Translations under genes and position numbers: made by a program
DNA from: a virus
Virus record (IMG/VR): IMGVR_UViG_3300019763_000002
Span: 1-43,893 of that record
DNA: 43,893 bases
Reading direction: 5' to 3' (one strand)
In this document: in pieces, positions 28,271 through 31,214 of the stretch
How positions within the stretch are numbered: position 1 is the first letter of the stretch
How the letters are laid out: each line of letters begins with the position of its first letter
The notes under the pieces: model-generated
The model's database searches: none
What the model was told of the DNA's origin: nothing
Seen by the model: the letters and a program-made list of their open reading frames with translations, nothing else

Positions 28271-28310
28271 CACTGGTCGGAGCAGTTGGGCAAATAATGT
28301 GTGTTATGAT
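28271..28310 (+). promoter_or_regulatory. FadR-like operator/promoter module, copy P5
   Basis: Operator CACTGGTCGGAGCAGTT (28271-28287), 17 bp, TGT and the -10 TATGAT (28305-28310). Predicted start about 28317, 24 nt before the ATG of the PAPS-reductase-like gene. It drives the five-gene IbrA/EctC-like/IbrB cassette. Confidence 0.8.
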
Positions 28311-28340
28311 GCTTTTCAAGTTAATTGATTAGGGGTTTAT

Positions 28341-29672
28341 ATGAAAAGAGTATATAAAGACAAGAATGTTTTTGATGCAGCTTATGAAAGGATGGATTTC
28401 ATTTGGAAGAATTTCGAGCGTGTATATTTAAGTCTTTCAGGCGGCAAAGATTCTGGCGTAATGATGAATCTATGTCTTAAATACATGAGAGAAAATAAAG
28501 ATATCGTCGCGGGAAGGAAACTTGGCATCCAAATAATGGATAATGAAGCTAATTATGATGAATCGATAGAGTTTATGGAGCGTATAATAAATGACAATAT
28601 AGAATATCTTGATGTTTATTGGTGCTGTCTTCCGATTACATTACCTTGCACAGTATCCGCTTATCATATGGATTGGCAGTGCTGGGGTGAAAGAGACAAA
28701 GATCGCTGGATAAGGCCAATGTATGATTATCCGTATGTTGTAAATATGTCAAATCACCCTTTTGGTGATTTATTCAAAGAGGATATGGGTTATGATGAAT
28801 TTTGGGATATGTTCGCAGAATGGTATAGTCAAGGCAAATCTTGCGCCAATATGATAGGCATTAGAACCCAGGAGTCATTAAATCGCTTCAGAGCATTGAT
28901 GAATGAAAGAAAGCAAACAGTTAAAGGTCGCATGTGGACAAAGAAAAACACAGAACACACGTATAATGTTTATCCGATTTATGATTGGAAAGTTGATGAT
29001 GTTTGGATTTCTACAGGGCAATATGACTGGGATTACAACAAGCTTTACGACTTATTTTACAAAGCAGGAATTCCAATAAACTCTATGCGTGTTGCATCAC
29101 CTTTTATGAGTGAAGCAAAGTCGAGTTTAGGGCTTTACCGAGTTATAAATCCACATATATGGGCTAGATTATGCGCCAGGGTTCAGGGTGCTAATTTTGT
29201 CGCGACATATGGCAAGCAGCTTGATTACAAATCGATAAAATTACCTGATGGGCATACATGGAAATCATTTGTTAAGTTTCTTCTTGATACTCTACCTCAA
29301 GAGTCAGCAGAAAATTTTAAATTGCGCTTTGCTCAATCAATAAAGTTCTGGGCTAGAGTTGGGCGCGGGTTGCATGATGATGTAATTGAAGAGCTTAGAA
29401 GTATTGGCGTTAAGTTTAGGTTGAATGGATTAACCCCCCACGGCTCTAAAAAGCTTAGTCGGGTGTGTATAACGGTGCCGCCAGACCACGTTGACGGGCT
29501 TAAAAAAAATAACAGCGATGTTACAAGCTGGAAACGATTCGCTATAACGATATTGAAGAATGACCACACATGTAAATACATGGGGTTACAACCAACACAT
29601 GAGCAAGCAAAAAGACAGCGCGCGATCATGGAGAAATACAAAAATATAGGGATAAAAGGAGAAAAGAAATGA
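28341..29672 (+). CDS. PAPS-reductase-like DUF3440 protein (IbrA type)
   Basis: 443 aa. The PP-loop SLSGGKDS at residues 31-38 binds a nucleotide in the adenine-nucleotide alpha-hydrolase fold; NMIGIRTQESLNR and FYKAGIPINSMRVASPFM are typical of the phage/IbrA-type DUF3440 branch. Family members pair with ParB-like IbrB, as here, and in E. coli IbrA/IbrB affect gene expression. True PAPS reduction is unproven; AMP-transfer or sulfur chemistry is possible. It is the first gene of the P5 cassette and overlaps the next by 4 bp. The C-terminus has an ITILKNDHTCKYMGLQPT segment echoed in the gene at 30945. Confidence 0.85.
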   Translation: MKRVYKDKNVFDAAYERMDFIWKNFERVYLSLSGGKDSGVMMNLCLKYMRENKDIVAGRKLGIQIMDNEANYDESIEFMERIINDNIEYLDVYWCCLPITLPCTVSAYHMDWQCWGERDKDRWIRPMYDYPYVVNMSNHPFGDLFKEDMGYDEFWDMFAEWYSQGKSCANMIGIRTQESLNRFRALMNERKQTVKGRMWTKKNTEHTYNVYPIYDWKVDDVWISTGQYDWDYNKLYDLFYKAGIPINSMRVASPFMSEAKSSLGLYRVINPHIWARLCARVQGANFVATYGKQLDYKSIKLPDGHTWKSFVKFLLDTLPQESAENFKLRFAQSIKFWARVGRGLHDDVIEELRSIGVKFRLNGLTPHGSKKLSRVCITVPPDHVDGLKKNNSDVTSWKRFAITILKNDHTCKYMGLQPTHEQAKRQRAIMEKYKNIGIKGEKK

Positions 29673-30061
29673 AAGTAGTTAACTATAAAAATCTAGAGAA
29701 AGAAAGAGTTGTTGAATTCCATGCGGGTGTCAGTCATAGAATAATTCTAAAAAGTGACAACATGGGTTTTGGCTTGACTAGAACAACAATATTACCTGAA
29801 GCTGGCAGAGTTTTTCAGCATTATAAGAATCATCAAGAATCTTGCTATTGTGTCAATGGCTTGGCTATCCTTGAATGCGCTGAAACAGGTAAGCAACACT
29901 TCATTAAGCCAGGGGACACTTATATTCTTGCAAATAATGAACCTCATTATTTTACAGCGTTAGAAGAGACTGTTCTTATTTGCTCATGGAATCCACCATT
30001 AATTGGTAAAGAGGTCCATAGAAAAGATGGTTCATATTCAACTGACGGGAGTAACGACTAA
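29669..30061 (+). CDS. Ectoine-synthase-like cupin (EctC family)
   Basis: 130 aa, the full EctC length. HYKNHQES, GDTYILANNEPHYF and WNPPLIGKEVHRKDGSY follow ectoine synthase closely. From memory of the Paenibacillus lautus enzyme, the iron ligands Glu57, Tyr85 and His93 are present at the same positions, as are Tyr52, His55, Gly64, Leu87, Glu115 and His117; Phe107 is Trp here. EctC closes N-gamma-acetyl-diaminobutyrate to ectoine. No ectA or ectB is in the genome, so it may use a host precursor or another substrate. It overlaps both neighbours. Confidence 0.8.
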   Translation: MKVVNYKNLEKERVVEFHAGVSHRIILKSDNMGFGLTRTTILPEAGRVFQHYKNHQESCYCVNGLAILECAETGKQHFIKPGDTYILANNEPHYFTALEETVLICSWNPPLIGKEVHRKDGSYSTDGSND

Positions 30062-30588
30062 TGACAAAATTTAAATCACCGGTTTACAATGTAATACCAG
30101 TTCCAATTGAAAAGGTTACTGCTAACGACTACAACCCTAACAGCGTAGCCCCACCTGAAATGGCGTTACTGGAAACATCAATCTGGGAAGATGGGTACAC
30201 TCAACCAGTTGTTACCGTTTACGACAAAGAAAATGATAAGTATGTTGTTGTTGATGGTTTCCATCGTTTTCTCACATTAAAAAACTCAAAGCGTATATTG
30301 GAGCGAGAGGGAGGTGTTTTACCTTGTGTTGTTCTTGATAAAGAAATGCACGACCGTATGGCATCAACAATTAGACACAATAGAGCTAGGGGTTCACACA
30401 ACATTGAGTTGATGAGTACAATAGTTTCAGAGCTTGTCGAGATGGGTAAAGGGGATAGATGGATTTGTCAGCACGTAGGTATGTCACCTGACGAGCTACT
30501 TAGAATGAAGCAAATAACAGGTATTGCCGCATTATTCCAAAATAAGGATTTTTCTGATAGTTGGGAAGTAGAGGATGAGGAAGTTTAA
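30061..30588 (+). CDS. ParB-like nuclease-domain protein (IbrB type)
   Basis: 175 aa. IEKVTANDYNPNSV starts the ParB/Srx-like fold, and YVVVDGFHRFLTLK (residues 61-74) is the ParB box, where known members bind or hydrolyse nucleotides. TIRHNRARGSHNIELM and MGKGDRWICQHVGMSPDELL form a helical DNA-binding-like part. It belongs with the PAPS-reductase-like gene as in IbrA/IbrB pairs, here with the EctC-like gene between them. It overlaps the upstream stop by one base and the next gene by 14 bp. Confidence 0.8.
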   Translation: MTKFKSPVYNVIPVPIEKVTANDYNPNSVAPPEMALLETSIWEDGYTQPVVTVYDKENDKYVVVDGFHRFLTLKNSKRILEREGGVLPCVVLDKEMHDRMASTIRHNRARGSHNIELMSTIVSELVEMGKGDRWICQHVGMSPDELLRMKQITGIAALFQNKDFSDSWEVEDEEV

Positions 30589-30985
30589 AAGAGTTTGGCA
30601 TCCTTATGAAAATTGGGAAGAGGTAAAGTTTAACATGTGGGGGTCTGTCAATGACAGGTCCTCATGGATAAAAAAAGCAGTTATTTTTACTAGTGACCAC
30701 AAATTATACGGAACTTATATGCAAAAAGTCGTAAATGAGTGGCCTATAAGTTGTGAAAACGCATTAACTGATTATTACATGAATAGAAAGGCGTGGATTG
30801 GTCATGCTGCTTGCGCTATGGCCATGAATTGTCCCGAAGATATAACGAGGCAGGCTTGGAAAGAATTAAGTTATGAGCAACAATATTTGGCAAATCAGGA
30901 AGCAATCAGAGCAATACGAACATGGGAGAACATGTATATCGAGAGTGAACAGTTACGTGAAAGTATGGGAGGAACGCTGCTATGA
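30575..30985 (+). CDS. Cassette protein, 136 aa, unknown
   Basis: Aromatic-rich alpha-helical protein (RVWHPYENWEEVKFNMWGSV), with TDYYMNRKAWIGHAACAMAM in the middle. Its start overlaps the IbrB-like gene by 14 bp, which ties it to the cassette. I recall similar small proteins beside phage DUF3440/ParB pairs but cannot name a family. No membrane or zinc features. Probably a partner of the IbrA/IbrB-like proteins. Confidence 0.7.
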   Translation: MRKFKRVWHPYENWEEVKFNMWGSVNDRSSWIKKAVIFTSDHKLYGTYMQKVVNEWPISCENALTDYYMNRKAWIGHAACAMAMNCPEDITRQAWKELSYEQQYLANQEAIRAIRTWENMYIESEQLRESMGGTLL

Positions 30986-31184
30986 AAATGGTATACCTGA
31001 CGAGATTGAAGCAGGGTTGATGAATTCTATGAGAGTTCCAAGCTACAAAGCGCTTGCTATGTGCATACTTAACAATGATCTTCATCTATACGGTGTAGGT
31101 TTTTCCCCGCATATAAGTCATTGGTACAGGGTGGTAAAACAAATAAACCAGCCTAAAACATCTCAGATTGATATGTTCGAGTAA
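30945..31184 (+). CDS. Cassette protein, about 79 aa
   Basis: The frame is open from 30873, but the coding signal begins near VWEERCYENGIPDEIEAGL; GTG codons at 30945 or 30957 are the likely starts, giving a short overlap with the gene upstream. The segment SYKALAMCILNNDLHLYGVG resembles the C-terminal SWKRFAITILKNDHTCKYMG of the DUF3440 protein in the same operon, so it may be a detached or duplicated domain of it. Ends in DMFE just before the terminator. Confidence 0.65.
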   Translation: MNSYVKVWEERCYENGIPDEIEAGLMNSMRVPSYKALAMCILNNDLHLYGVGFSPHISHWYRVVKQINQPKTSQIDMFE

Positions 31185-31186
31185 CA

Positions 31187-31214
31187 AAAAAGCCCTCAAT
31201 CAAGAGGGCTTTTT
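31187..31214. terminator. Bidirectional terminator of the P5 cassette and tail tube gene
   Basis: An 11-bp perfect stem AAAAAGCCCTC / GAGGGCTTTTT around AATCAA, 2 bp after the last cassette gene and 15 bp past the 3' end of the minus-strand tail tube gene. A runs on one side and T runs on the other make it work in both directions. Confidence 0.92.

Follow-up and report, generated by a model that had tools for sequence, protein, structure and literature searches.

The stretch analysed here, an IMG/VR viral record of 43,893 bases (the window), carries a cassette of five co-oriented, overlapping genes on its + strand, in which an EctC-like cupin lies between an IbrA and an IbrB protein and is followed by two small proteins, sm1 and sm2. 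The first gene, at 28341-29672, encodes IbrA (443 amino acids), a PP-loop ATP-pyrophosphatase (SGGKDS) joined to DUF3440. The cupin, at 29669-30061 (130 amino acids), matches the Pfam family Ectoine_synth, and IbrB, at 30061-30588 (175 amino acids), belongs to the ParB/sulfiredoxin superfamily and bears DGFHR and TIRHNRARG motifs. The all-helical sm1 (30575-30985; 136 amino acids) is a hallmark of the cassette, and sm2, which resembles the C-terminal tail of DUF3440, ends at 31184 and has an ambiguous start, either an ATG at 30873, giving 103 amino acids, or a GTG at 30945. Neighbouring reading frames overlap by 4, 1, 14 and about 41-113 nucleotides, in 5′ to 3′ order. An intrinsic terminator on the + strand at 31187-31214 (-16.8 kcal/mol, z = -5.5) closes the operon. 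A preliminary description of this DNA, made from its letters, had proposed both the five-gene composition and a strong terminator, and the analysis agrees with it on both.

The same description placed a promoter, P5, ahead of the cassette, and this claim was only partly upheld. The site coincides with a real repeated element on the + strand (28272-28310), composed of the palindrome-like ACTGGTCGGAGCAGTT at 28272-28287 followed by the -10-like box TGTGTTATGAT; a box reading TGTGTTATgaT lies 3′ of this copy of the motif. A generic sigma-70 scan, in contrast, returned no + strand promoter upstream of the cassette, and the motif was recognised by comparison within the genome rather than by that scan. 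The motif, ACTGGTCGNANCAGTT, has 17 matches in the window against 2.45 expected, with eight places on the + strand, mostly directly upstream of + strand genes. Together with a TGTGTTATA-like box it occurs at window positions 181, 14911, 17945, 26857, 28272, 31731, 33892 and 41486. We infer that the element drives transcription of the cassette, and its copies probably place early or moron units across the phage in a single regulon.

We scanned 2.9 million viral contigs from IMG/VR with alignments of IbrB, sm1, EctC and sm2, and de-duplicated the matches by shared 80-mers into 133 sequence groups, phage isolates included. Because cassette genes served as the queries, and the IbrB scan comprised the best 80 of at least 591 matches, the proportions given here describe near relatives of the cassette and not all IbrAB pairs. 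All five genes were present in 101 of the 133 groups, and EctC was carried by every one of the 24 groups recovered with sm1 and by 48 of the 51 recovered with IbrB. The order IbrA-EctC-IbrB-sm1-sm2 was found in 38 groups, and again in 37 in which EctC and IbrB are fused, a fusion seen in 40 groups overall; sm1-sm2 and IbrB-sm2 fusions also occur. Other arrangements were sm1-sm2-IbrA-EctC-IbrB (six groups), IbrA-EctC-sm1-sm2-IbrB (five), IbrB-sm1-sm2-IbrA-EctC (four) and EctC-IbrB-sm1-sm2-IbrA (four). The IbrA tree groups the EctC-bearing members into one clade (SH-aLRT, a likelihood-ratio branch support, of 99) that contains a single member without EctC, and it requires at least 13 changes of gene order and at least six of fusion state. 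The combination of DUF3440, EctC and ParB-like genes singled out in the preliminary description is therefore not peculiar to this genome: relatives have the cupin too, and membership recurs in more than 100 viral groups, although a conserved order does not. Gene membership that is kept while order is shuffled is the usual sign of functional coupling.

The cassette is almost confined to phages. A search for sm1 in 84,980 cellular species genomes yielded four loci, all on metagenome contigs, of which the one inspected closely (L300) comes from a phage and holds the cassette complete; a plasmid search for sm1 gave no match. IbrA and IbrB homologues (DUF3440 and ParB-like) are themselves widespread in phages, plasmids and enterobacteria. 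Pairs were found in E. coli and phages, as anticipated, and EctC-less IbrAB is common on plasmids and in phages of Streptococcus, Lactobacillus and E. coli. Examination of recurrent flanking genes revealed no additional constant partner; those in relatives belong mainly to replication and recombination, as judged by eye from sequence and not by family search.

The closest comparison is with Pseudoalteromonas phage XCL1123, which is 76.8% identical in nucleotides to window positions 28323-31143. Elsewhere the two genomes align solely in three short stretches near a helicase gene, and the cassette has a different position in each, so that it behaves as a transferable unit. All five frames are under purifying selection, since nonsynonymous divergence (dN) is 0.07-0.19 while synonymous divergence (dS) is near or beyond saturation. 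The sm2 reading frame of XCL1123 (L001:22565-22873) is conserved yet unannotated.

PP-loop enzymes use ATP to activate a carbonyl or similar group. The IbrA of the window passed the Pfam thresholds for DUF3440 (2e-58; 197.3 bits vs 25) and PAPS_reduct (2e-11; 45 bits vs 22.5), and its AlphaFold2 model (pLDDT, the model's own confidence score, of 84) matches the folds of CysH, FAD synthase, CysD, TtuA, NcsA and TilS, the last three being tRNA-modifying PP-loop enzymes. Similar as the fold is to CysH, the curated cut-off for that family was not reached (21.2 vs 165.1 bits), on which ground we rejected the reading of IbrA as a PAPS reductase serving as an auxiliary metabolic gene. Membership of a Dnd phosphorothioation system was likewise rejected, the DndC equivalog scoring 23.1 bits against a cut-off of 290.4, with no DndD or DndE among the cassette genes. 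Two IbrAs (L225:4340-6004 and L252:1799-3409) have N-terminal extensions of about 100 residues that lack a Pfam match.

A signature of five cysteines (C95, C96, C103, C114 and C278) distinguishes 96 of 104 EctC-associated IbrAs from EctC-less ones, where it occurs in one of 17; as it also coincides with a clade, it cannot serve as independent functional evidence. The cysteines are predicted from the sequences to form a metal or iron-sulfur site. Among EctC-less IbrAs, only that of L241 has all five; it falls within the EctC clade, and EctC was presumably lost there. A 1-Cys peroxiredoxin gene (L241:3868-4617) occupies its place. IbrA and EctC diverge in step, with strongly correlated pairwise distances (Mantel r = 0.67; highest value in 200 permutations, 0.05), and this co-divergence, with the cysteine signature, ties the two proteins together.

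The cupin of the window exceeded the gathering score of PF06339 (Ectoine_synth) (1e-33; 116.3 bits vs 27) and fell short of the NCBIfam ectoine synthase cut-off (NF009806; 114.7 vs 128 bits). It keeps the iron ligands E57, Y85 and H93 (window numbering) and has lost Trp21 and Asn38. The same pattern emerged when 111 phage EctC sequences were mapped onto Paenibacillus lautus EctC: Glu57 and Tyr84 are present in all 111 and His92 in 110, and Ser23, Arg25, Thr40, Tyr52, Glu114 and His116 are each invariant. The Trp21 column, by contrast, holds Gly in 54 sequences, Phe in 51, other residues in six and Trp in none (a single protein has a Trp displaced by one position), and Asn38 is replaced in 108 of 111, mostly by T, H or M. 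Trp21 is described as conserved in orphan EctC as well as in bona fide enzymes. It is needed to position N-gamma-acetyl-diaminobutyrate (N-gamma-ADABA), and W21A ectoine synthase retains 9.7% activity; Asn38 holds the substrate carboxylate (PMC6344544). Retention of the catalytic core with loss of these two residues predicts that catalysis persists on a substrate different from that of ectoine synthase and perhaps bulkier. On sequence grounds, the phage EctC does not qualify as a true ectoine synthase.

Further genes in three contigs (L186, L230 and L262), all outside the window, may extend this chemistry. Directly between IbrA and EctC, each encodes an EctD-like dioxygenase, for which EctD itself provides the closest solved structures (1e-89); the TIGR02408 cut-off of 336.5 bits was not reached (284.5, 188.6 and 172.8), though EctD was still the best family by far. 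DNA encoding the ectoine-hydroxylase motif WHSDFETWH was found in these three alone among the 2.9 million viral contigs. On the IbrA tree, L186 is sister to L230, while L262 branches far from both, and the gene was therefore probably acquired at least twice. Two of the contigs also encode an O-methyltransferase, standalone in L262 and, in L186, the middle part of an EctC-methyltransferase-IbrB fusion. The two copies are 64% identical to each other, and their best solved relatives are 3ssm (3e-27), which we take to be MycE, and demethylmacrocin O-methyltransferase. The presence of both additions inside the cassette fits ring closure followed by hydroxylation and then O-methylation of one scaffold.

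IbrB of the window matches the ParB-like family phrog_2159 (8e-78), and its relatives among PHROG profiles include ParB-like partition proteins and phage families fused to DNA methyltransferases. It fell below the cut-offs of Pfam ParB_N (PF02195; 7e-4, 20.1 vs 26.3 bits) and TIGR00180 (16.9 vs 58.45 bits), and no ParA was recognised in the cassette. The AlphaFold2 model of sm1 is all-helical (pLDDT 94), and a fold search in the PDB gave no match (best E 2.3); sm2 resembles the DUF3440 tail in Pfam (1e-4).

That the five genes serve one pathway, as the preliminary description supposed, is well supported by their recurrence in more than 100 viral groups, the retention of members through reshuffled orders, the fusions, the co-divergence of IbrA and EctC, and the optional EctD-like and O-methyltransferase genes. 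Its more specific suggestions, a nucleotide-activated substrate or a defence or counter-defence role, are candidate readings. As to its nature, the explanation we put first, while granting it somewhat less than an even chance, is a virus-borne, five-protein biosynthetic module that makes an ectoine-like ring, most likely for nucleic acid or nucleotides. IbrA would use ATP through its PP-loop, probably with the putative metal or iron-sulfur site of its five cysteines, to activate a substrate group, and EctC would close an ectoine-like cyclic amidine by iron-assisted elimination of water. In some phages, the EctD-like dioxygenase would then hydroxylate the ring and the MycE-like enzyme O-methylate it, while IbrB, as a ParB-fold binder of nucleoside triphosphates (NTPs), may present or deliver the product together with sm1 and sm2. 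The likeliest destination would be viral nucleic acid or nucleotides, a DNA hypermodification that could shield the genome from host nucleases. Such a target is favoured, with moderate confidence, because of the ParB fold of IbrB and its similarity to the ParB domains of phage methyltransferases, because fold relatives of IbrA modify nucleic acid, and because many relatives of the cassette sit in replication and recombination neighbourhoods. The full proposal, in which the cyclic amidine, in some lineages hydroxylated and O-methylated, is attached to phage nucleic acid or nucleotides, is more tentative, and we hold it as perhaps a one-in-three prospect.

Several observations weigh against the explanation put first. 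The cassette of the window adjoins structural and not replication genes; no function can be assigned to sm1 or sm2; and the EctD-like and methyltransferase additions are limited to three of about 100 lineages and may serve those alone. EctB, searched for near the cassettes, was found only in a non-cassette control (L007), and no EctA was recognised in the cassettes, though no profile search was made for it. The control, MT835761, is an EctC match in the phage collection that we rejected as a relative, since it is a typical ectoine locus of bacteria, with canonical EctC as well as EctB; it is labelled Bacteriophage sp. and is probably bacterial chromosomal DNA. In addition, a protein of the IbrB type could act in regulation, a role reported for IbrAB on eib genes by the title of Sandt 2002.

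The product might instead be a small cyclic amidine that is never attached to nucleic acid but stays free, reprogramming the infected cell as a signal, an inhibitor or an osmolyte-like compound. We judge this unlikely. In its favour, the known families of EctC, EctD and MycE-type methyltransferases work on small molecules, and PAPS-reductase-like genes in phages are mostly described as auxiliary metabolic genes. It would not, however, lead one to expect the strict pairing with a ParB-fold protein, the fusion of EctC or the methyltransferase to IbrB, or the location of most relatives in replication regions, and both the loss of the Trp21 that positions N-gamma-ADABA and the lack of EctB count against it. 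A regulatory unit, in which IbrA and IbrB are transcription co-activators, the cupin is a ligand sensor and there is no enzymatic product, seems improbable. The eib genes of E. coli prophages are reportedly activated by IbrAB, the ParB fold is known to bind NTPs and DNA, and cupins sense ligands in AraC-type regulators, a weak AraC_binding match being seen in Pfam; yet EctC in its catalytic and metal residues, and IbrA in its PP-loop, hardly vary over about 110 lineages, and a hydroxylase and an O-methyltransferase are not additions that one would expect in a unit built around a simple sensor. Slightly more doubtful still is a moron-type function in anti-defence or superinfection exclusion by a mechanism unrelated to DNA chemistry. 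Within the window the cassette does stand apart, a + strand unit among - strand tail genes that is bounded by an operator and a terminator of its own, and the edges of the XCL1123 alignment fall near its ends, as for a mobile unit. A PADLOC search, however, gave weak similarity only, DndC being the best; the cassette is absent from plasmids and nearly absent from cellular genomes by the sm1 search; and replication or recombination genes lie nearby in many relatives. A true ectoine synthase with which the phage boosts host (hydroxy)ectoine from N-gamma-acetyl-diaminobutyrate is very improbable, for although PF06339 is passed, the iron site is complete and an EctD-like gene lies beside EctC in three lineages, Trp21 is absent from all phage EctCs, the NCBIfam cut-off is unmet in the window and the tight linkage to IbrA, IbrB, sm1 and sm2 would go unexplained.

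Other genes interrupt the cassette or its relatives. GIY-YIG-like genes lie within it at L006:4890-5264, L203:5666-5983, L094:2532-2852, L201:5509-5844, L229:1391-1666 and L049:4510-5262, and their repeated insertion suggests that the cassette is a favoured target of homing endonucleases; the Mycobacterium phages Gaia and Nebkiss combine such an insertion with the EctC-IbrB fusion. One EctC cassette has a Pfam-supported PD-(D/E)XK gene between IbrB and sm1 (L228:5515-6213), and another contains a second ParB-superfamily protein (DGQHR, DndB-like; L272:3547-4614). In EctC-less relatives, a protein of 174-184 amino acids separates IbrA from IbrB (L276:6735-7259, L277:2823-3347 and L293:7813-8367); by eye it resembles a PD-(D/E)XK nuclease, and the L293 copy has no Pfam match. 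We rejected nuclease-like genes between IbrA and IbrB as parts of the cassette, since they are confined to EctC-less lineages. A GNAT acetyltransferase (L082:5601-6029) and a small methyltransferase (L091:931-1494) occupy the same interval in other such lineages, hinting at alternative tailoring.

In the literature searched, which left out most subscription papers so that novelty is unproven, the cassette, its distribution and its EctD and methyltransferase variants are apparently undescribed. The preliminary description had regarded an EctC between IbrA and IbrB as new; the arrangement is in fact already annotated in Gaia and XCL1123, while no published description of it was found. Gaia gp103-gp107 comprises the same five proteins, with the EctC-IbrB fusion labelled 'ectoine synthase/ParB multidomain protein' in GenBank; it differs by the inserted GIY-YIG-like gene and is known from annotation alone. 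With XCL1123 and Gaia both cultured, on Pseudoalteromonas and Mycobacterium, the cassette is directly testable.

Among characterised systems, Dnd/Ssp phosphorothioation (DndB-DndC) likewise combines a PP-loop protein with a ParB-superfamily protein; the cassette differs in having no DndD or DndE and in scoring far below the DndC cut-off. CmoX/CmoY hypermodification of phage DNA offers the parallel of multi-gene phage pathways with further steps, and ParBc proteins near CmoX, according to the available parts of those accounts, which show no EctC, EctD or DUF3440; the DNA target of the cassette is a proposed one. If correct, attachment of an ectoine-like amidine to nucleic acid would be a new chemical class of genome modification. 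With ectoine synthase and orphan EctC the phage proteins share the cupin fold family, Glu57/Tyr84/His92, Thr40, Tyr52, Arg25 and Ser23, and differ by the loss of Trp21, the replacement of most Asn38, the lack of an ectB neighbour and the linkage or fusion to IbrB. They form a separate branch of the orphan EctC-type proteins, a group described as having an unresolved role (PMC5924519). The IbrA/IbrB (YbdN/YbdM-like) pair, lastly, has the same two families in tandem, often in phages or plasmids, but lacks EctC and, in the isolate records L008-L011, sm1 and sm2 as well, and its IbrAs fall outside the EctC-bearing clade, mostly without C103, C114 and C278. Published mentions treat the IbrA-like gene as a PAPS reductase or a prophage co-activator, and the literature searched held no biochemical function for homologues of either protein; the EctC, EctD and MycE-type partners described here provide a chemical clue to the possible role of this widespread pair.

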